NCBI RefSeq assembly: GCF_900128455.1
Contig: NZ_LT635783.1
Coordinates: forward strand, 38,794 to 102,793
Length of the DNA: 64,000 nucleotides
Reading direction: 5' to 3'
Source: Bacteroides mediterraneensis
GTDB lineage: Bacteria > Bacteroidota > Bacteroidia > Bacteroidales > Bacteroidaceae
Every line of letters begins with the position of its first letter. Position 1 is the first letter of the stretch. The notes below the pieces were generated by a model that was not told the DNA's origin, did not search any database, and saw only the letters and a program-made list of their open reading frames with translations. The position numbers were made by a program, and so were the translations under genes. This document shows, in pieces, positions 2,394-31,845 of this stretch.

Positions 2394-4658
2394 TTATTTT
2401 CCGGTTTTGATTTTATCCCATGACGGAGGAGTGACTCCCATCAAATTACGGACAAAGAAATCATATCGTTTGTGTTCGCCAAAATCCTCTCCCATGGTAT
2501 GGTGAGCACCCGGAATCACCACCAGTTCAAAATCCTTATTGGCTTTTACCAACGCATTGACTACCTGCATCGTAGAAGAGGGGTCTACATTGTCATCCAA
2601 TTCGCCGACCACCAGCATCAGTGGACGAGTCAGCCGATAGGCATTGTCCACATTCGAACAAGCACTGTAAGACTCATCTACCGGATATCCCATCCAAAGT
2701 TCGTTCCACCAGATTTTATCCATCCGGTTGTCATGACAACCACAAGCCGAATAAGCCGCCTTGTAGAATTCTGGATGGAACAGTACAGCTCCTGTAGATT
2801 CCTGTCCGCCGGCTGAGCAACCAAAGATACCGACACGGTCAATGTCCATATAAGGATATTTCTGTGCAGCAGCCTTAATCCAGGCAATGTGGTCGGGCAG
2901 TCCGGCATCTTTCAGGTTTTTGTAGCACACTTCCTCAAATTCTTTGGAACGGAAAGAAGTGGTCATACCATCTACCTGTACTACGATAAATCCAAGCTCG
3001 GCCAAAGAAGTCATCCACCAGTTATAAGAAGAGAAAGTCTTCGGCACATACTGGTCGCCCGGACCGGAGTAGATGTACTCAATCACCGGATATTTCTTCG
3101 ACGAATCGAAATTGGACGGACGGTAAATCACACCCCACATGTCGGTTTTTCCATCACGACCTTTGGCTGTAAACACTTCGGGAGCCTTCCATCCGTTAGC
3201 CAGCAGTGCAGAAATGTCTGCCTTTTCCAGCTGCATACGGATTTTCCCATTCTTTGCCTCACGCAACACAGCTACCGGCGCCTGGTCTACCTTACTGTAT
3301 ACATCTACCAGATACTTATAGTCGGGCGAATACCAGCACTGGTGCATACCCTCTTCGGGAGTCAGTTCTACCAGGTTGCTGCCGTCGAAGTTGATTTTAT
3401 AATAATGAATCAAGTAAGGGTCTTCCTTTTTATTCATGCCATTGGCGGAGAAATAAATCACCCCGTTGGCCTCATCCACATACTGCACACCACGTACGTA
3501 CCATTCACCTTTGGTAATCTGGTTCAACGGTTTCCCTGTGGCCCGGTCGTACATATACAAGTGATTGTAATTATCCCGCTCGCTCGACCAGATAATCCGT
3601 TTACCGTCGCTCAGATAATTCCGGTAAATACGGGGATAATTTACGTATTTCTCTTCTTTCTCTTCAATCAACGGACGGACCTTTCCATCGACTGCCGACA
3701 TTTCCAACACCCGATACACCTTGTGTCCGCGTTCGTTGTATTCAAAAGTAATGCCTTTGCTGTCTGCATTCCACATCGGAGCCGACAAATCATACTGATG
3801 ACTAAACAACTCTGTAGAAGGAATCAACCGGCGACCGGATTCCACCTCAAAAATGCAGGGCACCTTGAAACGCAGCTCATCGCCCGGTTTGGCATACTCC
3901 TGCTTGTGCAGCTTCGGCTGTGACTGGTCGGCAGGAGAAGACTCCACATAATACACATAGCGCTTCTCTACCGGACGAATCCGACAAGACACCACCGACT
4001 TGGAGTCGGGCGACCATTGGATATAAGCAGAATAATAATTACTCAATGTACCGTCTTGGCTCAGCTGTTTCTCTTCGCCGGTCGCAATTTCACGCACATA
4101 CACATTGTCGTTCTTGATGAAAGCCACCCATTTACCGTCGGGAGAAGTCACCGGACGTCCTTCTTTTTCATCGTCCACTTCCATCCAGTGGCGTTCTTTT
4201 CTACGGGGAGGAACCGCACCTTCATCGAGCAAACGGTTGTGCTTGATGCTGTAAGCCCAGAACTTACCGTCAAGTTGGAAGCGCAACGTATCAAGAGACA
4301 CATTCAGCCGACAGTCCTGAAGCGGAAGATGATACGCATCCACCTTCCGACCTGACTGTTCAGATAAAGCTGTAGCCATTTTCTGCTGGTCGAACAAAGC
4401 TGTCCGTTTAGCCGATGCCGCATCCACCTTCACATACTCGTTTCCTTTCTCAGTCTGACGTACATACCAGAAAGAAGAAGTCTGTTCTACCCAGTGAGGC
4501 ACCACTCCTGCATAAAGTACCTGCTTCATACTGTATCTCTCCCGAAGCGCATAAGCCCGGTTATAATCTTCTACTGTACCCTGTGCAAAAAGCGGCATAC
4601 AAGCTGCACTTCCCAGCATGATGGACAAAAGTCCCGATTTCCATAAATTGTTTCCCAT
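2394..4658 (-). CDS. Secreted S9-family (DPP-IV-like) serine peptidase
   Basis: The 754-residue protein has a signal peptide (cleavage near PLFAQ, residue 26), an N-terminal beta-propeller of the DPP-IV N type (about 100-480) and a C-terminal S9 peptidase domain (about 500-745). Catalytic residues are Ser615 in GCSAGG, Asp688/Asp689 in GELDDNVD and His719/His720 in GAHH. The family cleaves after proline or alanine near the N-terminus. However, I do not see the DWxYEEE loop that anchors the substrate N-terminus in classical DPP-IV, and the elbow is GCSAGG instead of GWSYGG, so dipeptidyl activity is uncertain. It is the last gene of the minus-strand glycan locus, about 100 bases after a GH127 gene, which suggests trimming of proline-rich peptides freed of sugar. 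Confidence 0.88.
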   Translation of the reverse strand: MGNNLWKSGLLSIMLGSAACMPLFAQGTVEDYNRAYALRERYSMKQVLYAGVVPHWVEQTSSFWYVRQTEKGNEYVKVDAASAKRTALFDQQKMATALSEQSGRKVDAYHLPLQDCRLNVSLDTLRFQLDGKFWAYSIKHNRLLDEGAVPPRRKERHWMEVDDEKEGRPVTSPDGKWVAFIKNDNVYVREIATGEEKQLSQDGTLSNYYSAYIQWSPDSKSVVSCRIRPVEKRYVYYVESSPADQSQPKLHKQEYAKPGDELRFKVPCIFEVESGRRLIPSTELFSHQYDLSAPMWNADSKGITFEYNERGHKVYRVLEMSAVDGKVRPLIEEKEEKYVNYPRIYRNYLSDGKRIIWSSERDNYNHLYMYDRATGKPLNQITKGEWYVRGVQYVDEANGVIYFSANGMNKKEDPYLIHYYKINFDGSNLVELTPEEGMHQCWYSPDYKYLVDVYSKVDQAPVAVLREAKNGKIRMQLEKADISALLANGWKAPEVFTAKGRDGKTDMWGVIYRPSNFDSSKKYPVIEYIYSGPGDQYVPKTFSSYNWWMTSLAELGFIVVQVDGMTTSFRSKEFEEVCYKNLKDAGLPDHIAWIKAAAQKYPYMDIDRVGIFGCSAGGQESTGAVLFHPEFYKAAYSACGCHDNRMDKIWWNELWMGYPVDESYSACSNVDNAYRLTRPLMLVVGELDDNVDPSSTMQVVNALVKANKDFELVVIPGAHHTMGEDFGEHKRYDFFVRNLMGVTPPSWDKIKTGK

Positions 4659-4760
4659 TGTGTTTTATTTTAAAAATCGGGACTTCAGATATTCTTTCTC
4701 GTATCCAAGAATATCCAAAGCCCCGAGTCTGATTGCATTATTATCTATCAATTATCATGG

Positions 4761-7169
4761 TCATTTCACTTCCCATTCGTACAAGCCTGAAGAGTTCTTA
4801 TCCGGCTGAACGACTTCCAGTTTTACAGCCTTGGTCTTTACCGGTTCAAATTCTACCGTGTTCGGATTACCTTTCTTCACGCCATATTCCGAGATGTTCT
4901 GTACCGGAGTCCAGTTGCCGGAAGCATCTTTGTAATAAATCTTCCAAGCTTTCGGCACACGGCAACCTCCCCATGGTGCATCGTCAAACCAGTAAACCGT
5001 AGAGCTGGAAACTTCCATCTCTTCCGGAAATTCGTAAGAAATCCATTCCGTAGTACCTTCTTTCGGCCACCAATGATAATAAGGAATGGTTCGGTCGTTT
5101 TCATCTTTCGGTACCAGCCCGTCGGTGATGGCAGACAAAGAAGTCACTTTATGAGATGCATCTATCTTACTCTTGGAAGCCAAGGTAGGAATAGCTACCG
5201 GACGAGTGGCACTTACTTCATTCGGCAACCATACCGCCATGTTACCGGCTCCACGGTGAGCCCATGCATAATACGGAATCATTGTCAGTGTATGATCTTT
5301 AGCCACCAGACGACCCGACTCATCGTATTCCAAGGTCTGGGCCTGTGTCTTGATTTCGTTAATACCATACAGCAAATCCGGTTTTTCTACCACTTCGAAC
5401 TTCGGCGTGCGGTTCATCAAGACACTCAGCACATCGAAATCGTTGTCCGGCCATTCCGCACAATAGACAATCGGGCCACGTTCTACAGACACCCGGCCAC
5501 GGTCAGCTTCCACTTTACCGTTGGCTCTAACCGTACGCACATTCATGTCGAAATGGATTTCCACCTTATCTCCCTTCTTCCATTTACGGTCGATAGTGAG
5601 ATATCCTTTCTCTAAATCCGATTTCACCTCTTGTCCGTTTACTTTCACACAGTACTTCGGACGACTTCCGTCGGTATAAGTATACAAATCGCTCGGAACC
5701 ACCTGATTGCGTACCCATCCCGGGATACGAATCTTCATGGCAAACTGTCCGGCTGAATTCCGGTCGACTGCCAACGTGATGTCTCCGTTCCAGGGATAAG
5801 AAGTGGTCTGTGACAAGGTCACCTTCTTGCCGTTTACTTTCAGCGTGGCATTGTTGGCAATGAACAAGTTGACATACACATCCTTGTCCTTCACTGCATA
5901 CACATAACCCGGTACAGAAGGAATGAAACGGCAGATGTTAGACGGGCAGCAGGCACAACCGAACCACGGCTGGCGCTGATGCTGTCCCATGGATTCCAAC
6001 GGATTCGGATAGAAGAATGAACCCCCATCCAATGATACGCCTGAAATCAGTCCGTTATACAATGTACGTTCCAGCACATCATAATACTTGGAATCCCCAT
6101 GCAAGAGGAACAGACGGTAATTCATATACACATTTCCGATAGCCGCACAAGTCTCACAGTAAGCCGACATGTTGGGAAGTTCATAATTTTTTCCGAAAGC
6201 TTCCCCATTGTTCGTTGCACCAATACCACCGGTTATATACAATTTCTTGGAAACGATGTTTTCCCAAATACGGTCAATGGCATGCACATACGCCGTATCT
6301 CCCGTCAAGGCAGCTACATCGGCCATACCAGAATACATGTAAGCCGCACGAACGGCATGTCCTACTGCCTCATCCTGTTCAATCACCGGCTTATGAGCCT
6401 GACTGTATTCATCCCGGCGGGAAGTGTAGCCACGCTTGTCCAGGAAGAATTTAGCTTCATCCAGATATTTCTGGTCACCTGTTACCAGATACAGTTTGGC
6501 CAATGCCATTTCGGCAATCTGATGGCCCGGTACACGTACCTGCTGTCCCGGTTTATCGCCGATTTCCCGGCAGACACAGTCTGCATAACGAATCGCAATA
6601 TCCAGGAAGTTACGCTGTCCCGTAGCCTGATAATGTGCAATGGCTCCTTCAATCATGTGTCCCAGATTATAGAACTCATGACTCAGTTCCTCCACCTTTT
6701 CCCAGCGTTTGCTACCCGCCCATTCATGCGGATGTTTGGGGTTCATGGTACGTGCCGTGTACAGATAGCCGTCGGGCTCCTGTGCGGCTGCCACAATCAC
6801 CAGTACACTGTCGATATACTTCTTCAATTTCTCATCCGGATACGTCTGAAGCAGATAGCTTGCTCCCTCAATAGTTTTGTACACATCCGTATCATCAAAC
6901 GAATACCCTGTCACCTTGTTGTTTTCACTCGGGTGAGCGGCCATTTCAAAGTTCTTGTAACGTCCGGTTTCTTCACATTTGCTGAAAGCCAGCGGAATCG
7001 TCACCTCACGGCTTGCTTTCAATCGTTGTCCCCAAAAAGAATCCGTCAGTTTTACCGAAGTAAACGGAACCGGATCAATCGGATAGCCATGTGCCGGAGT
7101 TTTCTTCTGTGCGTATGCCCCGCCTCCAATCAACGAAAAGAGCAGAGCTGAAATCACTAGTTTTTTCAT
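4761..7169 (-). CDS. GH127 beta-L-arabinofuranosidase-like enzyme, secreted
   Basis: The 802-residue protein has a signal peptide (GGGAYAQ, residue 21). Its (alpha/alpha)6 catalytic domain carries the GH127 (DUF1680) signature. The zinc/cysteine site is complete: CETC with Glu339 and Cys341, and GCACCP with Cys407 (nucleophile by analogy with HypBA1) and Cys408. Glu323 lies 16 residues before Glu339, as the HypBA1 acid/base Glu does. A beta-sandwich follows, and a C-terminal ~120 residues (WISYEFPEEMEVSSS onward) resembles an F5/8-type module. GH127 members release beta-L-arabinofuranose, including from hydroxyproline-linked chains; some act on rhamnogalacturonan-II instead. It sits 32 bases after the GH43 gene and is a paralogue of the GH127 lipoprotein at 24842-27280. 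Confidence 0.9.
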   Translation of the reverse strand: MKKLVISALLFSLIGGGAYAQKKTPAHGYPIDPVPFTSVKLTDSFWGQRLKASREVTIPLAFSKCEETGRYKNFEMAAHPSENNKVTGYSFDDTDVYKTIEGASYLLQTYPDEKLKKYIDSVLVIVAAAQEPDGYLYTARTMNPKHPHEWAGSKRWEKVEELSHEFYNLGHMIEGAIAHYQATGQRNFLDIAIRYADCVCREIGDKPGQQVRVPGHQIAEMALAKLYLVTGDQKYLDEAKFFLDKRGYTSRRDEYSQAHKPVIEQDEAVGHAVRAAYMYSGMADVAALTGDTAYVHAIDRIWENIVSKKLYITGGIGATNNGEAFGKNYELPNMSAYCETCAAIGNVYMNYRLFLLHGDSKYYDVLERTLYNGLISGVSLDGGSFFYPNPLESMGQHQRQPWFGCACCPSNICRFIPSVPGYVYAVKDKDVYVNLFIANNATLKVNGKKVTLSQTTSYPWNGDITLAVDRNSAGQFAMKIRIPGWVRNQVVPSDLYTYTDGSRPKYCVKVNGQEVKSDLEKGYLTIDRKWKKGDKVEIHFDMNVRTVRANGKVEADRGRVSVERGPIVYCAEWPDNDFDVLSVLMNRTPKFEVVEKPDLLYGINEIKTQAQTLEYDESGRLVAKDHTLTMIPYYAWAHRGAGNMAVWLPNEVSATRPVAIPTLASKSKIDASHKVTSLSAITDGLVPKDENDRTIPYYHWWPKEGTTEWISYEFPEEMEVSSSTVYWFDDAPWGGCRVPKAWKIYYKDASGNWTPVQNISEYGVKKGNPNTVEFEPVKTKAVKLEVVQPDKNSSGLYEWEVK

Positions 7170-7201: not shown

Positions 7202-9616
7202 TCATTTATGTTCCAATGGAAGAGCTTCATCCCAAATTTTCAACGCATGCACATAACCACTAAACGGCCAATTGCCTTCCGCATTTTGTCCCAAAGTTAC
7301 AAATTGTATCGGTTTTATCAGCAACTGAATGTCTTTCGAGCTGATTAATTGGTCATTTATATACACTTTTTCTATTCTTCCATCAAAAACAACATAAATA
7401 TGTTGCCACTTCCCGGCCAAACTCTGGGCATCCTTATAACCCACGTCTTCATAAAAGCCGTAATGGTTCAGCATGCCGCAACGAGGTTCCGTCCCATTCA
7501 CCAACATAATCTTTTCCAACTCGTCATGTGAACTGGTAAAATCGGCTACACATTCATTTTCAGCCAGTTCCAGATTCAACACCCATGCCTCCAAAGTGTA
7601 AGGCGCATTGTCACGAAGAGTAGCCGGCAACATAAAGCTGGAGCGGAAGAACTGCTTGCCTTCAAAACGGAAAGCCTTCTTCCCTTGCACTTCCTCCACC
7701 ACTACCGGCGCTTTCCGTGCCTCGAAATAACCTTCCACTACGCCTTTGTTCGGGATATACGGCACAGTATCTCCTACGGCGAAATCTTCGGCTGTCATAG
7801 AGACCAGCAATCCTTTCTTTACACGGTCGGAAGCCTCCACACGTACCAGTCCCACTGTGGCATCGTATGCTTTTTCCACTTCTTCCTGCTTCCAGTTATA
7901 ATACCGGAAATTCGTCAAGACCAGTTCCCGGCCTGGAGCCTGAATCACCACTTTCCCGCGTTGCACATAGTCTTCTGCCGACTTGGAAGTCCAGCGGTTA
8001 TTTTCATATACCCAGACTGTGGCTGTATGTTCCTCTTTCGGATTGATGACCGGTGATTCGAATTCCAGCTGCGTACCCGGTGCCAAGACGATGGCTTCCT
8101 GTCCTCCTATACGCTTGCGGGAAACTTGTCCGGTCGTCAGTCGGAAGATGCCGCCCAGCATACCGCCGTCGTTCTTCCATTCCGTACCGTTCCAGTCCAA
8201 GCCTGAAAGCCCCATCCACAGCTGAGGAGAGGCCGTTTCATACGCCCCAAACACCTTGATATTCCACAATGCACCGGCAAAACCGTTTTTCTGTGTACCC
8301 GTGGTTGTCAATCGTACATAACGTGCATCCGTTTCTCCAAAATCCACCATCGGACTTCCAGCCAGATAATTGTGACGCTTGTCCGCAAAGACCTTCCATT
8401 GCTTTCCATCCACTGAGGTTTCAATCAGGTATTGATAATAAGATGTACCATATTCAAACTGCGTCCAGATGGTACGTATCTTTTCCACCTTCTGCAAATC
8501 AATTTCAATCCATTCCTGCCCCATCGTTTTCGGACGCCACAACGTACCGTTATTGTCATCCACCGCATATTCAGGCAAGAAATTCGCATCATAATACGAA
8601 GAAGCCTTGACCGGTTTCCCGTATGCCAAATTCTTCGATTTCAAGATACTCTTGGCAAAAGCACCGACTCCACTGTGTGTCCCTTCCACCGGTACAATCG
8701 AGCCATCGGCATTAAACTCCAGCTTGTCTATGCAAAGCTGGCGATGGAATCCCCGGTTGGAATGAGGATTGTCGTGACGATGATAGACAATGTAGTAATT
8801 GTCCCCTTCCTTCAGAATACTGTGATGCCCCGGACCATGCACCGTACCGTCGGCCGAGGTTTTCAGTACCGTACCTCTGTACGTATAAGGACCGAGCGGC
8901 CCTACTGTACTTGTGGCATATTGTACATGATAGGTGCTGTCATGACAAGAATCGGAGGAATACATGAAATAATAAATTCCGTTCCGCTTCATGACAAACG
9001 GAGCCTCGAAAAAGTCCTTGATTTCCGTATTGGGTATCAGCTTCGTTTCCACAAAACCTTTCATGTCGGGTGTCATTTTTCCTGCCCCGCAACCAAAGCC
9101 TTTGTAAATACCCCATGTTCCCCAATACAGATACACGGAGCCATCGTCATCTACAAACGACTGCCCGTCCAGCGTAATCGCATTTTTTACAAACCGGTCG
9201 GGTACCAGTACTGCTTCACTCTCGCCGAGCACGTTTTTCCACGGGCCACGTGGCGTTTCAGCCATTCCTTCATACACATTACACGGCTGGCAATAAAACA
9301 TCCGATACGTTCCATCCGTATGTTTCATCACATCCGGTGCCCAAATCCAGTGACTGTTCGGCCAGTTCATCGGCATAATGGTCCAGTTCTCAAAATCCTT
9401 GCTACACCACACCTGCGCAGGGCCAAAGCCGGCTCCACTTCCATCGGTTGTGGCATATACATAATACGTGTCTCCAAATTTCTTTACAGTAGGGTCTGCA
9501 AAATATCCCGGAATAAAAGGATTGCCTGCTCCCGGTGTATTCCACTCCACTTTCTGCGAATACACCGCCTGCAAGGCCATTCCTAGAAACAAACCTGTCA
9601 GAACTTGCTTTTTCAT
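7202..9616 (-). CDS. GH43-family glycosidase with F5/8 type C and LamG-like modules
   Basis: I start at the ATG at 9616, which gives an immediate signal peptide (MKKQVLTGLFLGMALQAVYSQ), rather than 12 codons upstream; the product is 804 residues. The five-bladed propeller (about 30-310) has the GH43 residues Asp41 (FADPT), Asp150 (TLDGQSF) and Glu204 (FFEAPF), plus the HGPGHHS motif near 260. A discoidin/F5/8C-like module spans about 330-457, an uncharacterised region follows, and a LamG-like fold occupies about 650-800. GH43 enzymes are mostly alpha-L-arabinofuranosidases, xylosidases or galactosidases. With two GH127 enzymes nearby, arabinofuranosidase is the best guess. It lies 19 bases after GH97 and 32 before GH127, so all three are likely cotranscribed. 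Confidence 0.88.
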   Translation of the reverse strand: MKKQVLTGLFLGMALQAVYSQKVEWNTPGAGNPFIPGYFADPTVKKFGDTYYVYATTDGSGAGFGPAQVWCSKDFENWTIMPMNWPNSHWIWAPDVMKHTDGTYRMFYCQPCNVYEGMAETPRGPWKNVLGESEAVLVPDRFVKNAITLDGQSFVDDDGSVYLYWGTWGIYKGFGCGAGKMTPDMKGFVETKLIPNTEIKDFFEAPFVMKRNGIYYFMYSSDSCHDSTYHVQYATSTVGPLGPYTYRGTVLKTSADGTVHGPGHHSILKEGDNYYIVYHRHDNPHSNRGFHRQLCIDKLEFNADGSIVPVEGTHSGVGAFAKSILKSKNLAYGKPVKASSYYDANFLPEYAVDDNNGTLWRPKTMGQEWIEIDLQKVEKIRTIWTQFEYGTSYYQYLIETSVDGKQWKVFADKRHNYLAGSPMVDFGETDARYVRLTTTGTQKNGFAGALWNIKVFGAYETASPQLWMGLSGLDWNGTEWKNDGGMLGGIFRLTTGQVSRKRIGGQEAIVLAPGTQLEFESPVINPKEEHTATVWVYENNRWTSKSAEDYVQRGKVVIQAPGRELVLTNFRYYNWKQEEVEKAYDATVGLVRVEASDRVKKGLLVSMTAEDFAVGDTVPYIPNKGVVEGYFEARKAPVVVEEVQGKKAFRFEGKQFFRSSFMLPATLRDNAPYTLEAWVLNLELAENECVADFTSSHDELEKIMLVNGTEPRCGMLNHYGFYEDVGYKDAQSLAGKWQHIYVVFDGRIEKVYINDQLISSKDIQLLIKPIQFVTLGQNAEGNWPFSGYVHALKIWDEALPLEHK

Positions 9617-9635
9617 TGTGTTTCTCTTTTTCTTA

Positions 9636-12365: not shown

Positions 12366-12449
12366 AGAATCATTTTTCCGATTACAAAGAAAAAAGATAA
12401 ACGAATAAGTCCCTGACAGGGAAGTCTGAAACGATAACAATATCATCCC

Positions 12450-12519: not shown

Positions 12520-13410
12520 CTACTTCTTAGCCTTCACGAAGTACTGGTTGAACACGATGCCCAGCACAATCATCACCAGTCCGATGTAAGTGGTAAAGAC
12601 GATGCGTTCGCCCAACACCACGGAAATGAAGAACAACGACATGAAGGGAGACAAGTAACACAGCTGGTTTATCAACGCCGGATTGGAGGTCTTCCGCATG
12701 GCCAGTCCGAAGAAAATAAAAGGAATGCCCATTTCAAAACCACCTACATACATGCCCGACAACACTCCGGTCAGAGAATGCAGGTTCAATCCGCAGAACA
12801 AAGCGCCGACCGACAAATAAACCGAACCGAACAGAAAAGTCAGAAAGAGCACCACACTGCCGTCCGTCTGTACCTTATTCCGGTTGTTGAACATCCAGTA
12901 GGCAGCCCACAGCACCGCACTCAATGCCGCCAACAGGAAACCTTCGGCCGACACGGTCATTTCCCCCTCGAATCCGGTACCGATAGAAATCAATGCCACT
13001 CCAGCCAACGACACAAACATCCCGATATACTTCTTCTTCGGAATGGGCTGTCCGGCAAACAGCGCCAGCAAAATCAGCAGCACAATCGGCCACGCATAGT
13101 TGATGGGCTGTGCCACCTGTGCCGGAAGCAGTTCGTACGCCTTGAACAACACCAAGTAGTAGGCCACCGGATTCAGCAAGCCCAATGCGGCATAATATCC
13201 CCATTGCTTCCCGGTCAGGCCTCCCAGCAGTCTCCATTTCCGCTGTACGGTGAGCAACACCGTAAATATCACCAGCGAGGTCAGGCTGGCCACCCACAAC
13301 ATCTCAAAATGCGTCAGATAACGCAACGCCATCTTGAACGCCGTGGCTACCGTCGACCAGCTCAACACCGCCACACAGGCACACGCAATCGCTTTGTTAT
13401 CGTTCGTCAT
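12520..13410 (-). CDS. EamA/DMT-superfamily inner-membrane transporter
   Basis: The 296-residue hydrophobic protein has about ten predicted membrane helices arranged as two EamA repeats (about 5-140 and 150-290). These features define the drug/metabolite transporter superfamily, whose members move amino acids, small metabolites or toxins across the inner membrane. The start ATG overlaps the stop of the M24 peptidase gene in an ATGA arrangement (13407-13410), so the two are probably translationally coupled. The context suggests a substrate linked to peptide breakdown, such as an amino acid or imino acid exporter or importer. That is inference; the family alone does not define the substrate. 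Confidence 0.85.
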   Translation of the reverse strand: MTNDNKAIACACVAVLSWSTVATAFKMALRYLTHFEMLWVASLTSLVIFTVLLTVQRKWRLLGGLTGKQWGYYAALGLLNPVAYYLVLFKAYELLPAQVAQPINYAWPIVLLILLALFAGQPIPKKKYIGMFVSLAGVALISIGTGFEGEMTVSAEGFLLAALSAVLWAAYWMFNNRNKVQTDGSVVLFLTFLFGSVYLSVGALFCGLNLHSLTGVLSGMYVGGFEMGIPFIFFGLAMRKTSNPALINQLCYLSPFMSLFFISVVLGERIVFTTYIGLVMIVLGIVFNQYFVKAKK

Positions 13411-21716: not shown

Positions 21717-24700
21717 TTAAAAGTTAACATTCAAGCCAAAAGTAAATGAACGAGTGGTCGGATATTTATCCTGATAATCAACACCTGGTGTCATAAAGGC
21801 ATTGTCCACTTCCGGGTCAAGACCTGAATATCCCGTAATACAGAACAGGTTCTGGCCTGATACATAAACTCGTAAATTATTAATATATTTCCGGAGATTT
21901 CCTTTCAACGGCACTGTATAGCCAATAGTTGCACTTGACAATTTTACGAAATCACCATTTTCAATATGGTCACTCCAATAACCCTGTGACATGGAATTTG
22001 AAAGACGAACCATCTTCTGTTCACCCGTAGCTTCGTCAATTACAGGAGTCATATCCGTATTGATTGCCGGATAATAGTTGGCGGCAGATTTCAAACGGTT
22101 GTAGGCAATGGAGTTGTTTTCGTAGAAACAACGCTGTGCATTCAAAATCTGATAACCGAACTGTCCGGTGAACTGCAAGCTCAAATCAAAACCTTTGTAA
22201 CGGAAGGTATGGTTCCATCCGGCATAGACCTTCGGCAGACCGTTACCCAAACGCTGACGGTTACTTTCCACATTCAAATTGGTATTGAAAGGTTTCACTG
22301 TCCAGTTTCCATTATCATCTTTTACTTCTACCAAGACAAATCCGTCTTTATCTACTCCCACGGACTTCAAGCCCCAGAAATCGCCCAAACGATGCCCTAC
22401 TTCCATACAGTGAGTAGGGGTACTGATCGGTTCACCCAAACCTCCATACAATTCTTGGAAGTTATCCGTCTCATACAAATCATTAGAAAGGCTTAACAGT
22501 TTGTTGCTGTTATGTGAAAGTGTCAATGTCGTACTCCATTCAAAATCTTTCGTCTGTACCGGAATGGCATTAATCATAATTTCAATACCACGATTACGCA
22601 TCTGACCTACGTTAGCAGTTGTTGTACCATACAAGTTAGGTGGTACAGGAACAGCGTAGTCATACAGCAAGTCAGATGTCTTCTTGTCATAGACATCGAT
22701 AGAACCGCTTAAACGGCCACTCAATACGCTCCAGTCCAAACCAAGGTTGAACTCACGAGTGGTTTCCCACTTCAGATTCGGGTTATAATTTTGGACAATA
22801 GCCAAAGTCTTTATCCATTCACCGTCTTGTGACATCACATCACCGTATGCATCATAATTATACAAATACAGTGACTTATAAGAATCACCCGGTATCACAC
22901 CTGTCACACCAAAACCGAATCTCAACTTCAAGTTGTCCAGCCAATGCTTGGTGTTCTGCATGAACTTCTCATTACTGATTGTCCATCCGGCAGAAGCAGA
23001 AGGGAAGGTACCCCATTTATTGTTGGCACCAAACTTGGAAGAACCTTCACGACGTACACTCACCATCAAATTATAACGGTCGGCATAACCATAACTGACT
23101 CGTCCGAAGAAACCAATCAATGTATTGTCGTTTTTATAAGACCCCATTGAAGCGTGAGGTGCTTTCTCATTTGTCAGATAATTACCCAAGCCCAAGTTGT
23201 TATACAAGTAGGCCTCAGTCGGGAAATCACCGTTTCCAGCACTAAATCCATCGTTTACGGTGTACAAGTAGCTATAACCGACCAATGCATTTACATGATG
23301 TTTTCCGATAGAAAAATCATAGTTTGATGTAAGTTCCAAGTTGTTGCTCCGGGAACTTCCTTCAGATTTCGAAGCATAACCGTTCACTTTCTGTTGAGCC
23401 TGGTCGTAATATTTACTTGAATAATACGTTTCTCCACGGGTTATATTCTCTTTGGTAGACAACATCAAGTTTGTTTTCCATCCCTTGATGGGTTCTACGG
23501 TAATATTTCCGGTCAATCGAGCCCAATTGACTCTTGTATCTCCAATCAGCTCATTCTGGATTTCTACCGGATTGTAGTAATACAGCTTGTCAAAGTTCTC
23601 ATTGTAAGAACCATCTTCATTATAGATTGGGGAAGACGGGTTACGGATGATAGCCTGACGATAGACATACGAGTTGTTATTGTTCGTATAGGTCTGACGG
23701 CCATACAACATATTGACGTTGAACTTCAAGATGTCATTCAAGGCATATTGAGTATAGTCCATCTGCATTTTCAGGTTCTGGTTGTCACTCTTCCGCATGA
23801 TACCCTGTTCATCGCTGAAAGTCACGTTGGCAGAATAAGTGGAATTTTTGGAACCTCCTTCAATAGACAAAGAATGATTATGTTTGAAACCTGCCTTACG
23901 GGTAACGGCTGCCAGCCAGTCTGTATCATAACCTTCGTATTCAAACGGAGTCAGCCCATAAATCACGTCGTGCGTATCCATGAAATCTGCTGTCTTAAAC
24001 CAGTCTGACAAAGAAACATAGCCTGAATATGAAACACTCGCCTTGGATTCACGTCTTCCCGTCTTGGTTGTAATCAAGATTACACCGTTCGCACCTCGTG
24101 TACCGTAAATTGCTGCCGCAGACGCATCTTTCAACACATCGATGGATTCAATGTTTTCGGGAGCCACCGTGGTAAGGGAACCTTCTACTCCATCCACCAA
24201 CACCAACGGAGTGACACTTCCCTTAATGGTAGTGATACCACGCAACATGATGCTGGAAGTGGCTGTCGGGTCACCAGAAGAATTGGTCACACTCAAACCG
24301 GCAATCTTACCTTTTACCAAGTCGGCTGCATCGGTAATCTTACCTGCCGTAAAATCTTCCGCCTTCACAGAAGCAATCGCACTGGTCACATCGCCTTTAC
24401 GCTGCGTACCGTAACCAATCACCACTACTTCATCCATCACTTCGGTATCTTCCTTCAACGTAATGACAGCTCCTTTCTTCAATTGGCTCACAGGAATATC
24501 CTGCGATTTATAACCAATGTAACTGATATGAAGTACCGCTTTCGCCGATACATTCAAACTGAATTTACCATCAAGGTCCGTAATCGTACCATTCGTGGTA
24601 CCTTTTTCCATTACATTCGCACCAATAATGGCTTCACCTTTTGAATCTACTACCGTACCGGAAATGGCTTTCTGCTGCAACACAGCCTCTACCACCGGTG

Positions 24701-24815
24701 CTCCATTGGATTCCGCATAAGCTGCCACAGGCAGGCAACCTGCAGAAAGCGCCACACATGCCGACATTTTTACAAATGCACGACTAAACAACATGCGATT
24801 TAAATGTGTAATCAT
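21717..24815 (-). CDS. SusC/RagA-family TonB-dependent outer-membrane transporter
   Basis: The 1032-residue protein has a long signal sequence (ending near AAYAES), a carboxypeptidase-like regulatory domain (about 50-125, ISGTVVDSKGEAIIGANV) and a plug domain (from about 130, VVIGYGTQRKGDVTSAI). A 22-strand beta-barrel follows, ending in an aromatic-rich strand (FTFGLNVNF). It imports oligosaccharides or glycopeptides into the periplasm with energy from TonB-ExbBD. There is no N-terminal STN domain, so it is not expected to signal to an anti-sigma factor; regulation instead fits the divergent hybrid two-component gene. It lies 26 bases after the GH127 lipoprotein gene and 13 before susD. Confidence 0.96.
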   Translation of the reverse strand: MITHLNRMLFSRAFVKMSACVALSAGCLPVAAYAESNGAPVVEAVLQQKAISGTVVDSKGEAIIGANVMEKGTTNGTITDLDGKFSLNVSAKAVLHISYIGYKSQDIPVSQLKKGAVITLKEDTEVMDEVVVIGYGTQRKGDVTSAIASVKAEDFTAGKITDAADLVKGKIAGLSVTNSSGDPTATSSIMLRGITTIKGSVTPLVLVDGVEGSLTTVAPENIESIDVLKDASAAAIYGTRGANGVILITTKTGRRESKASVSYSGYVSLSDWFKTADFMDTHDVIYGLTPFEYEGYDTDWLAAVTRKAGFKHNHSLSIEGGSKNSTYSANVTFSDEQGIMRKSDNQNLKMQMDYTQYALNDILKFNVNMLYGRQTYTNNNNSYVYRQAIIRNPSSPIYNEDGSYNENFDKLYYYNPVEIQNELIGDTRVNWARLTGNITVEPIKGWKTNLMLSTKENITRGETYYSSKYYDQAQQKVNGYASKSEGSSRSNNLELTSNYDFSIGKHHVNALVGYSYLYTVNDGFSAGNGDFPTEAYLYNNLGLGNYLTNEKAPHASMGSYKNDNTLIGFFGRVSYGYADRYNLMVSVRREGSSKFGANNKWGTFPSASAGWTISNEKFMQNTKHWLDNLKLRFGFGVTGVIPGDSYKSLYLYNYDAYGDVMSQDGEWIKTLAIVQNYNPNLKWETTREFNLGLDWSVLSGRLSGSIDVYDKKTSDLLYDYAVPVPPNLYGTTTANVGQMRNRGIEIMINAIPVQTKDFEWSTTLTLSHNSNKLLSLSNDLYETDNFQELYGGLGEPISTPTHCMEVGHRLGDFWGLKSVGVDKDGFVLVEVKDDNGNWTVKPFNTNLNVESNRQRLGNGLPKVYAGWNHTFRYKGFDLSLQFTGQFGYQILNAQRCFYENNSIAYNRLKSAANYYPAINTDMTPVIDEATGEQKMVRLSNSMSQGYWSDHIENGDFVKLSSATIGYTVPLKGNLRKYINNLRVYVSGQNLFCITGYSGLDPEVDNAFMTPGVDYQDKYPTTRSFTFGLNVNF

Positions 24816-24841: not shown

Positions 24842-27280
24842 TTACTCTACTTTCCATTCTATAATACCTCCCGAAGCTCCTTTCTGAAGCTGTGCAGAGA
24901 TTTTCAATCCGGTAGTCTTGACCGGCTTGAAGTTGACTACGTTGTACTTGTCTTTTTCTACGCCATATTGATCATTAGTTTCTACTTCTTTCCAGGAATT
25001 TCCGTTCTTGTAATAGAGCTTCCAGCTTTGCGGTACGCGGAAATTGCCGTCGTAATGGTCAAAGTCGAGCCAGTAGACTTCTACTTTCGAAACCGTGTAA
25101 GGCTGGTCAAACTCGTAGGCCAGAGACTCCAGTGTTCCGTCTTTCAACCACCAGTAGAAATAAGGTTTGGAAGTATCGGAAGAACGTTTGGGTTCCCACT
25201 GGTCGTTCACGCCCCATGCGTATGACATCACAGCTGCCGACTCGGGTGCATCTTTCTGGATAGGAGCCTGGATGGTAAATGTCTTGGCCTTGGAAGCGAT
25301 GGTCGGTTCCGGTGTCGGAGTAGCGTATTCCTTGGTCTCCGGAATCCAGACTTCCATCTGGTCGGACCCGCGGTTATCCCAAGTAGAATAAGGGATGGCA
25401 CGGAATGGTACATCTTTCACACTGCCGTCCTTACCCAGTTCCTTAGCTGTTCCGCTTAATACCATCACCCCTTTCAGCAGGTTAGCATCGTAAGTGGCCT
25501 TTATCGGTGTGTCACGCGGAATGAACTTGTTGAAGACGATGCTGTCGGGCTGGTCTTTACCTTCCAGACAGAACATAATCGGACCGCGTTCCAAAGCTAC
25601 CATACCCCGGTCGACTTCCACTTTGTCGTTGGCCGTGATACGACGGACATCCATCGGCAAATTCAATTCAATCACATCGCCCGGTTTCCAGGTGCGGACA
25701 AGTGTTTCGTAACCGTCACCTTCCATGCCTTTTACGTCGGAACCATTAACTTTCAACGTATATTTCTTGGCGGCATCTGTATAAGCATACAGGTCGGAAG
25801 CTACCGGAGCCGATTTTGCCCAGCTGGGGATACGCAGACGGATGGCAAACTTACCTTCTTTCTCTGGAGTGACTTTGATGGCAATCTTGCCGTCCCACGG
25901 ATACTGAGTGGTCTGTTCCAATGTTACTTTATTGTCAGCCGTCTTCATCTCTGCTTTTCCCTGAATGTACAGGTTCACATAAATGTCGTTCTGCTGAGTG
26001 GCATATACATAATTGGAAACGGAAGCCATAAAACGGGTGATATTACCCGGACAGCAGGCACAACCAAACCAAGGCTGGCGGTCGTGTTGTCCCATGGATT
26101 CCAACGGATTGTCGTAGAAGAATCTGTCACCGCTCAATGACACACCCGAAATCACGCCGTTGTACAAGGCACGTTCCAGCACATCCATGTATTTGGAATC
26201 GCCGGTAGCCAGGAACATACGGTAGTTCCAATATACATTGGCAATGGCTGCACAAGTTTCGCAATAAGCGGTATGGTTCTGCAATTCATAGTTCGGTCCG
26301 AAGCCTTCTCCCTGTGCCCGGGAACCCATACCACCGGTGATATACAATTTCTTGCTCACCAGATTGTCCCACAAGCGGGTCAAGGCATGGAAATAAGCGG
26401 TATCCTTGGTCAAGGCTGCCACATCGGCCACACCTGAATAAAGATATCCGGCACGTACGGCATGACCTACGATTTCATCCTGCTGGAGAATCGGCTTGTG
26501 GTCCTGACTGTATTCGCTCAGTTTGTGACCGTCGGTACCCCGTCCGGTTTCTTCCACGAAATACTTCGCCATATTGAGGTATTTCTCGTCGCCCGTCACC
26601 TTATATAATTTACACAATGCCATTTCAACGATAGGATGACCTGAAGGCACGTGCTTCTGTCCCTCGCCCGGACCGAACACCTTGCATACCAGGTCGGCAT
26701 TCTTGATGGCCACATCGAGGAAGGTACGTTTACCCGTAGCCCGATAGTGTGCGATGGCTGCCTCGTACATGTGACCGCTGTTATACAGTTCATGGCTGTT
26801 CAGTTTTTCCCATTTGGAACGTCCCCACCATCCGGAAAGACGGTAGCACTTGTTAGTGACGCAAGTAGTCAGATAACCGTCCGGTTCCTGAGCCGCTGCA
26901 ATGATATTAATCACACTGTCCAGATAATGGTCCAGCTTCGGGTCATATTTCACAGCCAGTGAATAAGAGGCACCTTCTATTACTTTATAAGGGTCGGTAT
27001 CATCGAAAGAAAAATCCCCACGATGTTCTCCTTTTTTCAATCCACCCGCAATGGCGAAATTATCGAAACGACCGTTTTTCTCACATTCCTTAAAAGCAGA
27101 AGGAATAGAGACGGTACGGTTCGTTTCAATACGAGGCGACCAGAAACCGTCACTAATATGTACTTGGGTAAACGGGACCTCCTGAATCGGAGCATCCGGC
27201 TGTTGATAAGCAGGCTTGGTACAGGAAGTGATTCCCACCACTGCGATTCCGCTCATCAATATCAAAAGTCTGTTCTTCAT
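24842..27280 (-). CDS. GH127 beta-L-arabinofuranosidase-like lipoprotein
   Basis: The 812-residue protein is a paralogue of the enzyme at 4761-7169 but carries a lipobox (GITSC, Cys20) instead of a cleavable signal. The GH127 site is intact: Glu325, Glu341 and Cys343 in CETC, and Cys409 (putative nucleophile) and Cys410 in GCACCP. The C-terminal module (about 690-812) again resembles an F5/8-type domain. The two enzymes probably act at different places or on different linkages. It is the first gene of the SusCD operon, preceded by a TACTTTTG box, which is unusual because susC is more often first. Substrate is likely a beta-L-arabinofuranoside; an RG-II-type activity cannot be excluded. Confidence 0.9.
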   Translation of the reverse strand: MKNRLLILMSGIAVVGITSCTKPAYQQPDAPIQEVPFTQVHISDGFWSPRIETNRTVSIPSAFKECEKNGRFDNFAIAGGLKKGEHRGDFSFDDTDPYKVIEGASYSLAVKYDPKLDHYLDSVINIIAAAQEPDGYLTTCVTNKCYRLSGWWGRSKWEKLNSHELYNSGHMYEAAIAHYRATGKRTFLDVAIKNADLVCKVFGPGEGQKHVPSGHPIVEMALCKLYKVTGDEKYLNMAKYFVEETGRGTDGHKLSEYSQDHKPILQQDEIVGHAVRAGYLYSGVADVAALTKDTAYFHALTRLWDNLVSKKLYITGGMGSRAQGEGFGPNYELQNHTAYCETCAAIANVYWNYRMFLATGDSKYMDVLERALYNGVISGVSLSGDRFFYDNPLESMGQHDRQPWFGCACCPGNITRFMASVSNYVYATQQNDIYVNLYIQGKAEMKTADNKVTLEQTTQYPWDGKIAIKVTPEKEGKFAIRLRIPSWAKSAPVASDLYAYTDAAKKYTLKVNGSDVKGMEGDGYETLVRTWKPGDVIELNLPMDVRRITANDKVEVDRGMVALERGPIMFCLEGKDQPDSIVFNKFIPRDTPIKATYDANLLKGVMVLSGTAKELGKDGSVKDVPFRAIPYSTWDNRGSDQMEVWIPETKEYATPTPEPTIASKAKTFTIQAPIQKDAPESAAVMSYAWGVNDQWEPKRSSDTSKPYFYWWLKDGTLESLAYEFDQPYTVSKVEVYWLDFDHYDGNFRVPQSWKLYYKNGNSWKEVETNDQYGVEKDKYNVVNFKPVKTTGLKISAQLQKGASGGIIEWKVE

Positions 27281-27861: not shown

Positions 27862-30800
27862 ATGAGGACACTTTATTGCTTATTCATTTTCCTGTCGGTC
27901 GGCCTATGGGGAAATGCCGCGCTTCCCACTCACTTCCAATTCCGTCATTACAACATCGAAAACGGGGTTTCTTCCAATGGCATATCCTCCATTCTGCAAG
28001 ACCAGAAAGGCTATATCTGGCTGGGAACAGAAAGTGGATTAAGCCGGTTCGACGGGAACCAATTTGTCTTCTACCAAAAAAGCAACCCACTTTATCCTGA
28101 CTTTCATGCCAGTTCTATAAATGCCATCTGCGAGACAAACACCAATGAATTATGGTTAGGCACAGAAAACGGAGTGTATATCTACAACCAGGTAAAAGAT
28201 ACATTTGCCCCCTTTTTGGAAAAGACAAGCAATAATACGGGCATCACCTCATGGATAACCCATATCATCCAAGACAAAGAGAAGAATATTTGGATTGCCA
28301 CCCGCAAGCAAGGCGTGTTTCAATACAACACCCAAACCTGCAAACTGATACAATATGAAATTCCTCAGAATGACAATATCATTATCCGTATATTGAACGA
28401 TGCTCAAAACAATATCTGGGTATCCGGTCCTTACCGTCTCTGCCGACTCAACAAAGCCCACAATACGTTTGAAGAATTTCCGATTAAAGGAGAGTCTGCA
28501 GGGGTATATTCCATGGCCCTGTGGGAAGACTCATCTCATAACCTTTGGATTGGCACTTGGGAAAAAGGGCTCTGGAAACTCAATCCGCAGACACATGAAG
28601 TGCAAAAGTTTCTGGTTTCCGAAAAAGGTATAGGCATACGCCATATCCATTCCATTCTGGAATACTCCCCCGAAATTTTCTTCATAGGTTCCGACGAAGG
28701 GATGACCATCTTTAACCCGATTACCCAAGAAAGTTTCCTTTACGACCAATACGGAGAGGGCAACGAGTCTTTATCCAACAAATTCATTTATCCGATGCTG
28801 AAAGACCGGGAAGGCGGTGTATGGATAGGTACCTACTACAACGGAGTAAATTATCTGCCTCCCTATTGTGGACAATTTCACGGATACTCCGGCACAGATG
28901 ATTTTCCCTTTTTCAACGGACAAATCATCAGCCGTTTCTGTGAAGGGGAGAATGGAGAAATCTGGATTGGTTCGGACGATGCCGGAGTAAGTTGTTTTTC
29001 TCCATCCAAAGGACAGTTTGTGAACTTTCCCGGAAGAGAACAGCTGACCCACAAAAATGTCCATGCCCTATGCCACACCGGAAAAGAGCTCTGGATTGGC
29101 ACCTACAGCGACGGGATATACGTTTTACAAACAGCCACCGGGCACATCCGAAGATACAGCGGAGAAAACGGACTGGATGAAAGCAGTATCTATTCTATTT
29201 TTCAGGACAGCCACGGACAAATCTGGACCGGCTCCATGAGCGGAGTCTGTTTATATAATCCGCAGAACGACCGGTTTACACGGGTCAAGAACCTGGATGC
29301 CCTGATTATCGAGATGAGAGAAGACGCAAAAGGAAATATCTGGATTGCCACCCAAGGGAAAGGGGTCTTTAAATACTCTCCCCAAAATCAGGTATGGGAA
29401 AAATATGGCCAGTCTGAAGGGCTGAACTGTCAGACCATCAACCATCTTTGCATCAATCGTGAAAATGAGCTGTGGGTAGCCACCGCAGAAGGACTTTACT
29501 TATTTAATCCTCTCAAAAACACCTTCTCCTATCATCCCCTGAACATACCCAACCAATGCATCAATGCCATTCTGGAAGGAGAAGACTGCCTGTGGCTCAC
29601 CACCGCCAAGGGACTGGTGAAATATACTCCCGCCACAAGGAGCGTACAGATTTTCACCAAAAGTGACGGGCTGCAAAGCGAAGCTTCCGTCATGGCTTCA
29701 GCCCTGAAAACCCGCAACGGGGAATTCTACATCGGCAGCATCAATGGTTTCAATACGTTCTATCCGCATTTGTTGAAACTCAACATGCAAAAGCCCAATG
29801 TAGTATTGACTGGACTGGAAATTTTCAACAAAAAAATAGAAACTCAAGAAGGAGGCATATTACCAGAAGCCATCGACCACCTGGAAGAAATCCATCTTCC
29901 CTACAAAGACAACGTCATCACACTGACGTATGCGGCTTTAAGCTACTGTACACCCCAAAAAAACCAGTACGCCTACATTCTGGAAGGTTTTGACAAGGAA
30001 TGGAACTATGTAGGTCCTCAACACAGCACCACCTACACCAACTTGCCGGCAGGCACTTATACCTTCCGGGTAAAAGCCTCCAATAATGACAACGTATGGA
30101 ACGAAGAAGGTACGTCCATCCGCATCATCGTGCATCCTCCGTTCTATTTCTCCCTGCCGTTCAAGATTGGCTATTTTCTGCTGTTTATCCTCGCTATCGG
30201 ACTGCTGCTGCGTTACGTGGTGCGCCGGAGCGAAAAGAAACATGCCAAGGCCATCGACGAATTGAACAGCAAGAAAGAAAAGGAAATCCATGAAGCAAAA
30301 ATCAATTTCTTCACCATGATTGCCCATGAAATCCGTACGCCGGTGTCACTCATCATCGGCCCGCTGGAAAAAGTGATGCAGTCCACACACATCCCGTCCA
30401 ACGAACGGCAGGAACTGGAAATCATCGACCGCAACAGCCAGCGCCTGCTTTACCTGGTGAACCAGCTGCTCGACTTCCGGAAAGTGGAACAGAAGGAAAT
30501 GCGGATGCACTTCACTTCACAATCCATACGGGAACTGATGGAGGGCGTGTGCGAACGCTTCTCTCCGACTCTACACCAGAAAGGAGTCAGTTTCTCCGTA
30601 GTCTATCCGGAAAAGGATTTCCATGCCGACGTAGACAAGGAAGCCATCACAAAAGTGTTGAGCAACCTGCTGACCAATGCCAACAAATATACGGAAAGCA
30701 TGATTGAAGTCCGCTTCCTGGAACAACCGGAACAGCAGACTTTCTCCATCCAGGTGAAAGACAACGGGAAAGGAATGAACGAAGAGGAACTGAGCAAAAT

Positions 30801-31845
30801 CTTCAAACCTTTCTATCAGGCGTCGGAAAACAAACCGGGCACGGGCATCGGACTGAGTATCGTGAAAGGCATCGTGGAAGCGCATCATGGCAAGGTGGAA
30901 GTGACCTCCCAACCGGGAATGGGCTCTGCCTTCATCATCACACTTCCACAGAAACAGGAGAAACAGACCAACGAAAACGGAGAAATCTTGTCGGCAGGCC
31001 CGCTACCCGAAGACATCATCCCCGAGCAACATGACTCTTCAGCCCCCAACAAGGTGCTGCCCATCATGCTCATTGTGGACGACAACGAAGACATGCTTCA
31101 TTTCCTGTCCTCCCATTTCCAGAACAACTATACCATTGTGACGGCCTCCGACGGCACCGAGGCACTGCATAAGTTGAAAGAGCAGGAAGTATCATTGATT
31201 ATCAGCGACTGGATGATGCCGCACATGAACGGTATTGACCTGTGCAAGGCAGTACGAAGCAACCAGATGACGAGTCATATCCCGTTCATCCTGCTGACTG
31301 CCAAGACAGGCACAGAGGCCAAAATTACCAGCATGAACTGTGGGGCGGATGCCTATATTGAGAAACCCTTCTCCCTGCAATACCTGGAAGCCTGTATCAA
31401 AAACCTGTTGGAACTGCGTCTGCAGCTGAGACAGAAATTCTCGCAGATGCCGACGGTTGCCATCAATTCCATCGCAGCCAACCAGACTGACAAGGTGTTC
31501 CTGGAGAAGATGAACCACCTGATTGAAGAGAACCTGAACAACGACCAGCTTTCGGTGGATTTTCTGGCTGAAAAACTGTGCATCAGCCGTTCGGGACTGT
31601 TCGTCAAACTCAAAGGACTGGCCAATACCACCCCGAACGAGATGATTCAGATTATCCGTCTGAAGAAGGCGGCCTCCCTGCTGCTGGAAAACCAGTACCG
31701 CATCAACGAGGTGAGCTACATGGTGGGATTCAATAACCCGTCGTACTTCAGCAAGTGTTTCCAGAAACAGTTTGGCATGAAACCGGGCGAATACATCGCC
31801 AGCCACACGTCCCAGCCTGCCGGTTCACCGACAGAGAAGGAATGA
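27862..31845 (+). CDS. Hybrid two-component system sensor-regulator (HTCS) of the PUL
   Basis: The 1327-residue one-protein signalling system has a signal peptide, then two seven-bladed propellers of Reg_prop repeats (about 25-635; recurring IWIGT/LWIGT motifs) and a Y_Y_Y domain (about 690-760). A transmembrane helix (about 767-787) precedes the HisKA domain with His822 (AHEIRTP) and HATPase_c (N941 region, DNGKGM, GTGIGLS, to about 1030). The receiver has the phospho-acceptor Asp1116 (SDWMMP), and an AraC-type double helix-turn-helix ends the protein (about 1220-1315). The periplasmic sensor normally binds an oligosaccharide made by the locus and the AraC part then activates it. It is divergent from the SusCD operon. 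The coding sequence for the sensor is visibly more AT-rich than that for the kinase-to-AraC half. Confidence 0.96.
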   Translation: MRTLYCLFIFLSVGLWGNAALPTHFQFRHYNIENGVSSNGISSILQDQKGYIWLGTESGLSRFDGNQFVFYQKSNPLYPDFHASSINAICETNTNELWLGTENGVYIYNQVKDTFAPFLEKTSNNTGITSWITHIIQDKEKNIWIATRKQGVFQYNTQTCKLIQYEIPQNDNIIIRILNDAQNNIWVSGPYRLCRLNKAHNTFEEFPIKGESAGVYSMALWEDSSHNLWIGTWEKGLWKLNPQTHEVQKFLVSEKGIGIRHIHSILEYSPEIFFIGSDEGMTIFNPITQESFLYDQYGEGNESLSNKFIYPMLKDREGGVWIGTYYNGVNYLPPYCGQFHGYSGTDDFPFFNGQIISRFCEGENGEIWIGSDDAGVSCFSPSKGQFVNFPGREQLTHKNVHALCHTGKELWIGTYSDGIYVLQTATGHIRRYSGENGLDESSIYSIFQDSHGQIWTGSMSGVCLYNPQNDRFTRVKNLDALIIEMREDAKGNIWIATQGKGVFKYSPQNQVWEKYGQSEGLNCQTINHLCINRENELWVATAEGLYLFNPLKNTFSYHPLNIPNQCINAILEGEDCLWLTTAKGLVKYTPATRSVQIFTKSDGLQSEASVMASALKTRNGEFYIGSINGFNTFYPHLLKLNMQKPNVVLTGLEIFNKKIETQEGGILPEAIDHLEEIHLPYKDNVITLTYAALSYCTPQKNQYAYILEGFDKEWNYVGPQHSTTYTNLPAGTYTFRVKASNNDNVWNEEGTSIRIIVHPPFYFSLPFKIGYFLLFILAIGLLLRYVVRRSEKKHAKAIDELNSKKEKEIHEAKINFFTMIAHEIRTPVSLIIGPLEKVMQSTHIPSNERQELEIIDRNSQRLLYLVNQLLDFRKVEQKEMRMHFTSQSIRELMEGVCERFSPTLHQKGVSFSVVYPEKDFHADVDKEAITKVLSNLLTNANKYTESMIEVRFLEQPEQQTFSIQVKDNGKGMNEEELSKIFKPFYQASENKPGTGIGLSIVKGIVEAHHGKVEVTSQPGMGSAFIITLPQKQEKQTNENGEILSAGPLPEDIIPEQHDSSAPNKVLPIMLIVDDNEDMLHFLSSHFQNNYTIVTASDGTEALHKLKEQEVSLIISDWMMPHMNGIDLCKAVRSNQMTSHIPFILLTAKTGTEAKITSMNCGADAYIEKPFSLQYLEACIKNLLELRLQLRQKFSQMPTVAINSIAANQTDKVFLEKMNHLIEENLNNDQLSVDFLAEKLCISRSGLFVKLKGLANTTPNEMIQIIRLKKAASLLLENQYRINEVSYMVGFNNPSYFSKCFQKQFGMKPGEYIASHTSQPAGSPTEKE

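Follow-up and report, generated by a model that had tools for sequence, protein, structure and literature searches.

Why should a locus of the polysaccharide utilisation locus (PUL) type carry a set of peptidases beside its glycosidases? The question is raised by a 64,000-nucleotide stretch of Bacteroides mediterraneensis DNA (hereafter the window; contig NZ_LT635783.1 of assembly GCF_900128455.1, positions 38,794 to 102,793, from a genome of 4.08 Mb in 18 contigs), in which a run of genes around a SusC/SusD pair combines two GH127 enzymes (GH127a, GH127b), a GH43 enzyme and a GH97 enzyme with two DUF6055 proteins (DUF6055a, DUF6055b), an S9 peptidase, an M24 aminopeptidase and an EamA transporter (Table 1). 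The analysis established gene content, families, predicted folds, and the fusions and neighbourhoods found in relatives; on these, the best-supported reading is that the locus deglycosylates a protein and breaks down its hydroxyproline (Hyp)- and proline-rich backbone, where substrate, linkages, compartments and order of action are what we infer. More specifically, we put at roughly 80% the probability that this is a PUL-type locus for an arabinosylated, alpha-galactosylated hydroxyproline-rich plant protein of the Ser-Hyp4 type: either extensin, a protein with a structural role in plant foods, or a solanaceous lectin.

Peptidases and glycosidases of the locus

Judged by profile homology, DUF6055 is a relative of the extensin-cleaving Svx peptidase. 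Both proteins exceed the 27-bit cut-off of the DUF6055 model PF19527, and although they fall far short of the Svx/AvrXca equivalog NF040510 (76 bits for DUF6055b and 47 for DUF6055a, against a cut-off of 625), they match it at E-values of 2.4e-21 and 1.5e-12 respectively, and are therefore relatives of Svx rather than members of its family. In the gluzincin pattern HExxH-X(8-28)-E, DUF6055b has a spacing of 21, whereas DUF6055a, owing to an insert, has 37 and lies beyond the range. An acyltransferase-like second domain is a further mark of the Svx/AvrXca family. Svx itself is reported to cleave extensin, to recognise Hyp-arabinans and, by docking, to accept serine-linked alpha-galactose (PMC13164431, PMC9266454). 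In contrast to Svx/AvrXca of Pectobacterium, Dickeya and Xanthomonas, the window DUF6055 proteins sit in a nutrient-uptake locus of gut commensal type, and DUF6055b bears a C-terminal beta-sandwich; this part alone drew weak Foldseek matches, resembling carbohydrate-binding modules, and a further comparison gave the metallopeptidase relation. In its best segments DUF6055b shares 97% identity with its counterpart in Bacteroides mediterraneensis and 91% with that in Phocaeicola plebeius. DUF6055a has a Cys24 after LNS that by eye suggests a lipoprotein; a lipobox pattern search returned no match.

The HExxH domain borne by the GH97 protein (residues 693-936, with HEFAH at 830 and TYALSNKEEYFAE at 868) is, on its predicted fold, an ATLF-like metallopeptidase of the Pro-Pro endopeptidase (PPEP) type and a candidate for Pro-Pro cleavage. 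The protein scores 20.5 bits with the ATLF model PF07737, below its cut-off of 27.4; among 120 homologues listed for the domain, some have a precomputed PF07737 match. The tandem of oxyanion-hole Tyr and zinc-side Glu is present at domain positions Y177 and E184, which all 32 aligned rows share, and these align with the Tyr and EEYFAE of PPEP-3 in a profile match with an E-value of 0.021. Further marks of Pro-Pro endopeptidases are an S-loop Trp/Tyr and the S1 pocket residues named in PMC12828418. Compared with PPEP-1 to -4, the window domain has about 15% identity and is fused to an alpha-galactosidase.

On the glycosidase side, GH127a and GH127b share the PF07944 catalytic domain and carry YCETC (at 339 and 337) and CACCP (at 407 and 405), which we take to be the Glu/Cys metal-nucleophile motifs of GH127; the nearest solved structure to both is 6ex6 (701.7 and 1157.7 bits), presumably BT3674 of B. 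thetaiotaomicron. The GH97 half passes the 800-bit cut-off of the retaining alpha-galactosidase model over residues 40-689, and the true start of the protein may be residue 30 (nt 12359). For GH43 the nearest structure is 5msx (183.8 bits), and its linkage specificity is a candidate only; for the S9 peptidase it is dipeptidyl aminopeptidase IV (2d5l, 177.5 bits). Two other assignments were rejected: rhamnogalacturonan II or aceric acid as substrate, as GH127a (504 bits) and GH127b (483.3) lie far below the 950-bit cut-off of the aceric acid hydrolase equivalog NF049879, and a bifidobacterial HypBA2-type system, as the NCBIfam scan of the locus found no GH121, the sole match to NF041578 being the C-terminal region of GH127b at 21.3 bits against a cut-off of 3200.

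Extensin and solanaceous lectins have Ser-Hyp4 motifs with one to four arabinofuranoses on Hyp (PMC6085000) and alpha-galactose on serine (PMC13164431, PMC9266454), and a route through such a substrate can be proposed. The hybrid two-component system regulator (HTCS) would induce the operon on sensing a product. Lipoproteins at the cell surface, namely SusD, the triple-DUF4859 protein and probably DUF6055a, would bind and nick the chain, and SusC would import the glycopeptides. In the periplasm, GH43 would take off terminal alpha-1,3-arabinofuranose, GH127a and GH127b the beta-1,2- and Hyp-linked beta-L-arabinofuranose, and the GH97 half the serine-linked alpha-galactose, with the PPEP-fold half and DUF6055b cleaving the chain thus exposed; the S9 enzyme would then free Xaa-Pro dipeptides and the M24 enzyme, for which no signal peptide was seen by eye, would split Xaa-Pro/Hyp peptides in the cytosol. 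The sequence-only reading listed an inner-membrane transporter and proposed import of glycopeptides; the EamA transporter is closer to YddG-type exporters than to importers (59.5 bits with the YddG model NF050091, far below its cut-off of 300), so it may work in either direction, and SusCD is the more natural candidate for import.

The co-directional run of twelve genes around SusCD which that reading described is borne out by the open reading frame (ORF) coordinates: all lie on the minus strand between 27280 and 2394, intergenic gaps measure -17 to 102 nt, and the gene beyond the operon end (1100-2359) has the opposite orientation. Pfam and NCBIfam profile scans of the window ORFs agree with every family it had named; they add the HTCS and the DUF4859 and BACON domains, and the analysis also identified the HExxH domains. 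The locus has the SusC/SusD pair, enzymes and regulator of a PUL.

Table 1. Genes of the window locus, with the domain matches and motifs on which each assignment rests.
Feature	Coordinates	Strand	Evidence
GH127a, beta-L-arabinofuranosidase type, predicted lipoprotein	24842..27280	-	PF07944 391.5 bits; ITSC at 17-20
SusC-type TonB-dependent transporter	21717..24815	-	TonB barrel, plug, CarbopepD_reg_2
SusD-type surface lipoprotein	19985..21703	-	PF07980, PF14322; lipobox-like FGSC
Predicted lipoprotein, triple DUF4859; candidate surface binding protein	18486..19988	-	PF16151 156.3 bits, 3 stretches; VTSC lipobox
DUF6055a: BACON + Svx-related peptidase + DUF4859	16142..18400	-	PF19527 474.5 bits; HEIGH at 270
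DUF6055b: Svx-related gluzincin-type peptidase	14793..16145	-	PF19527 546 bits; HELGH at 167, E193
M24 Xaa-Pro aminopeptidase	13407..14792	-	PF00557 + PF05195 (M24 + AMP_N)
EamA/DMT inner-membrane transporter, YddG-like	12520..13410	-	PF00892 twice
GH97-PPEP: GH97 retaining alpha-galactosidase fused to PPEP-fold metallopeptidase domain (predicted)	9636..12446	-	NF053844 837.8 bits; HEFAH at 830
GH43 + F5/8-type C + LamG-like; candidate alpha-L-arabinofuranosidase	7202..9652	-	PF04616 149.2 bits, PF00754, PF13385
GH127b, beta-L-arabinofuranosidase type	4761..7169	-	PF07944 431.9 bits
S9 DPPIV-like peptidase	2394..4658	-	PF00930 159 bits, PF00326 144.9 bits
HTCS, divergent	27862..31845	+	Reg_prop, Y_Y_Y, HisKA, HATPase_c, Response_reg, HTH_18

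Gene order and fusions in relatives

Relatives were compared across 80 named loci centred on DUF6055, many of them incomplete stretches, with phmmer floors of 300 bits for GH97, 200 for GH127 and 100 for SusC, and with Pfam on selected ORFs only. The order from GH127a to GH127b is kept in L034 and, minus the triple-DUF4859 gene (not detected there), in L035 (Phocaeicola plebeius DSM 17135) and L036; in all three the position of the S9 gene would fall outside the fetched stretch. Four further loci (L048 from Bacteroides ihuae, L083, L090, L105) hold DUF6055b, GH97-PPEP, GH43, GH127b and S9 in that order, with M24 and EamA not seen. Because the order recurs in these loci, the gene set of the locus is not a product of chance.

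By phmmer, GH97 occurs in 27 of the 80 loci, adjacent to or fused with DUF6055 in 19 and fused in five, with both domain orders represented (GH97 first in L067; DUF6055 first in L089, L106, L110 and L111); GH127 is found in 21, GH43 in 11, SusC in 44 and a second DUF6055 in 28. Pfam revealed further partnerships: GH27-DUF6055 fusions in L066, L078, L079, L081 and L084, all with GH27 first and perhaps one event; a GH27 alpha-galactosidase adjoining DUF6055 in L094; in L042, a gene of the GH127 family flanked by the two DUF6055 genes; and a DUF6055-GH43 fusion in L168. L256 unites a PPEP-like domain and a GH127a-type enzyme in one protein, which adjoins a GH127b. Among the matches listed for 121 family genomes are 92 GH97 proteins of the NF053844 kind (51 of them in genomes with DUF6055), and 17 of these have a DUF6055 match no more than 500 bp away; seven of the 17 exceed the 800-bit cut-off, the others score 733-795, and one neighbour is a sub-cut-off DUF6055 fragment. 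The proposal that sugars are removed and a proline-rich backbone then degraded, first made without database searches, is supported by these peptidase-glycosidase fusions together with the Svx relation and the PPEP fold.

In several loci other genes accompany DUF6055. A CotH-type kinase gene lies between two DUF6055 genes at L043:8640-9992, L046:8564-9931, L071:8402-9802 and L113:8566-9951, and in a genome of the window's genus (G013:C23:142594-143837, L147) a DUF6055 gene is split over two overlapping frames and apparently broken.

Hydroxyproline metabolism near the peptidases

HypD, the trans-4-hydroxyproline dehydratase, was sought in the 121 family genomes at E<=1e-100 and found in 27, for each of which one HypD region was fetched. 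DUF6055 is present in 26 of these 27 against 17 of the 94 HypD-free genomes, and in 18 of 19 genomes with a PPEP-like domain (E<=1e-15) against 25 of 102 others; the Fisher values for both co-occurrences ignore kinship. Contrasts within a genus point the same way in g6 (G075 has HypD and DUF6055; G005, G033, G056 and G108 have neither) and in g11 (G038, G078 and G110 have both; G010, G060 and G095 neither).

Relatives of the window M24 and PPEP-like domain are also encoded near HypD. M24 lies in six of the 27 regions, adjacent in L127, L128, L130, L131 and L140 and about 3 kb off in L126, and a PPEP-like gene in five (L126, L127, L128, L130, L140). L067 reads M24, HypD, activase, HTCS-like gene, GH97-DUF6055 fusion, GH127b-like gene and an alpha-L-arabinofuranosidase-type gene; its HypD scores 1149.3 bits with NF043068 (cut-off 1100) and 941.8 with 6vxc, its activase 308.5 with NF043069, the best match though below the cut-off of 425, and its GH97 part 750.1, below 800. 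On one strand of L128 stand CotH+DUF4859, a tandem PPEP-like gene, an FAD/Fe-S dehydrogenase, M24, HypD and an activase; L127 has the same order, with phmmer alone linking its first gene to DUF4859, and in both the best activase match is TIGR02494, with NF043069 below cut-off. In L261 an aldehyde dehydrogenase, a tandem PPEP-like protein and M24 occur together. A tree of 20 chosen M24 rows splits with 100/100 support into one side of 15, with the window M24, other M24s of DUF6055 operons and those of HypD regions, and another with the second M24s of five genomes. That M24, PPEP-like and GH97-DUF6055 genes lie near a hydroxyproline dehydratase in some relatives lends further support to backbone degradation.

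A wider proposal, which we advance tentatively and with rather more doubt than belief, is that GH97-PPEP is bifunctional, removing serine-linked alpha-galactose and, as a hydroxyproline-specific endopeptidase, cutting Hyp-Hyp bonds, within a Bacteroidales-wide pathway from plant hydroxyproline-rich glycoproteins to arabinose, galactose and amino acids (Svx-like, PPEP-like, M24 and S9 enzymes, then HypD or EamA export).

Two features of the HypD clusters stand apart. The CotH protein of L128 (699-2555) is fused to DUF4859, a domain also found on DUF6055a. Between the PPEP-like gene and M24 (L128:4215-7610, L127:5886-9209) lies a protein, some 1100 aa long and bearing DAO, Pyr_redox_2, Fer2 and BFD domains, which presumably resembles proline/hydroxyproline dehydrogenase complexes.

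Known systems and rival explanations

Bacterial use of hydroxyproline-rich glycoproteins is not in itself new. The HypAA/HypBA2/HypBA1 enzymes of Bifidobacterium longum and Xanthomonas euvesicatoria, which like the window include GH43 and GH127, strip Ara4-Hyp of extensin (PMC6085000); the window locus has no GH121 and, since that source reports hypBA2 and hypAA homologues as not found in Bacteroides, would be a different solution. For Latescibacteria, a different phylum known here from single-cell genomes, GH127 action on extensin Hyp-arabinose together with peptidases has been proposed in silico, with GH127 and generic peptidase families listed genome-wide; the accessible part of that account describes no linked locus and no Svx-like, PPEP-like or alpha-galactosidase fusions (PMC4454575). 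Searches of openly licensed literature gave, among the matches listed and judged by title and abstract start, no dedicated Bacteroidales extensin locus, one paper on DUF6055, which concerns a fungus, and nothing for DUF4859; PMC7761036, in its available part, groups extensin with arabinogalactan and describes no such locus. What would be new, if the extensin-type reading is true, is the linked set, in which enzymes that remove sugars and enzymes that cut proline-type peptides in part share a single polypeptide. The concept of a PUL would then reach beyond polysaccharide to glycoprotein, the known diet of Bacteroidales would widen from plant sugars to plant glycoproteins, DUF6055 and DUF4859 would gain a function, and plant protein in the diet would be linked to the free hydroxyproline of the gut.

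A number of observations weigh against this reading. Firstly, among the 80 DUF6055 loci M24 occurs in eight, EamA in 11, S9 in six and a PPEP-like domain in nine, and 44 are without GH97, GH127 or GH43 by phmmer, or 38 after Pfam, which found GH97/GH127/GH43-type or GH27 genes in six of them. Secondly, a search at E<=1e-100 found no HypD in the window's genome, so its own use of hydroxyproline by that route was rejected, and free Hyp would have to be exported, kept within peptides or put to another use. Seventeen of 43 DUF6055 genomes likewise lack HypD (including G053, G072 and G105 of g30 and G083 of g17), in g21 HypD occurs alone in G068 and DUF6055 alone in G047, and 21 of the 27 HypD regions, several ending at contig ends, hold neither M24 nor a PPEP-like gene. 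HypD, which turns Hyp into 1-pyrroline-5-carboxylate with collagen and diet named as sources (PMC7077986), may serve collagen-derived Hyp. HypD is found in none of the 11 genomes with EamA in the DUF6055 locus and in 18 of 39 without it (Fisher p 0.004), a count that covers the 50 genomes of the 80 named loci, its 11 EamA cases coming from about two related groups and genome completeness not being given; as a suggestion from sequence, EamA may export hydroxyproline or peptides where HypD is missing.

Among the alternatives, the one that survives best is that the locus acts on an arabinogalactan protein (AGP) or on a pectic side chain carrying beta-arabinose, with the peptidases accessory. The arabinogalactan PULs of B. 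thetaiotaomicron (BT3674-87, BT0262-90) resemble the window in carrying an HTCS and a related GH127 enzyme, with polysaccharide as their substrate; to our knowledge they have no peptidase set like that of the window. GH127b is close to 6ex6, and AGP-type activity of the candidate GH43 is possible because that family also includes exo-beta-1,3-galactanases. The GH127 enzyme BT3674 acts with galactanases on larch arabinogalactan (PMC10850190), and the primary substrate of PUL BT3674-87 is arabinogalactan (PMC3243724). Against this, the locus has an alpha-galactosidase and peptidases, and relatives have peptidase-glycosidase fusions. Breakdown of type-II arabinogalactan expects endo-galactanase, rhamnosidase and glucuronidase genes, none of which, GH43 aside, appeared in the family scans of the locus, and we regard this alternative as improbable.

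Less probable still is that the peptidases belong only incidentally to what is a polysaccharide locus of GH127, GH43 and GH97. Of 12 further regions fetched for the glycosidase side (L265-L276), seven hold the GH127a-GH127b pair (L265 to L271), L272, L273 and L276 have a single GH127 each, and L274 and L275 gave no matches. L268, L269 and L270 hold the pair without any window peptidase in the fetched stretch, so that the pair is not tied to peptidases, and conversely DUF6055b-M24-EamA stands without glycosidases in L037, L038, L045 and L144. In L265 and L266, however, the pair keeps S9 (1176-1192 bits) with no DUF6055 nearby; L267 and L271 end at contig ends, L267 on the side where S9 would lie. 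The expectation that peptidases travel with the glycosidases holds in part: a consistent lack of peptidases, which the sequence-only reading had named as a refuting case, was not seen, and the pair also occurs alone. Both peptidase types are directly fused to glycosidases in relatives, and in G097, of the window's genus, the parts absent from DUF6055b-M24-EamA at L144 occur at L146 (GH127a-SusCD with a DUF6055 remnant) and L260 (GH97-PPEP, GH43, GH127b, S9).

About as improbable as the passenger reading is a host mucin or other O-GalNAc glycoprotein as substrate, on which GH97/GH27 would be alpha-N-acetylgalactosaminidases and DUF6055 would cleave mucin as an O-glycopeptidase, for mucin has no beta-L-arabinofuranose or hydroxyproline, yet GH127 and in some genomes HypD accompany these genes, and the GH97 half matches the alpha-galactosidase equivalog.

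Two minor features of related loci may be added: a HipA-like gene and a PDDEXK transposase lie inside the homologous locus of Phocaeicola intestinalis (L083:7116-9753), and in the B. cellulosilyticus locus the HTCS is followed downstream by a gene for a tricorn-like S41 peptidase (L041:16210-19551).

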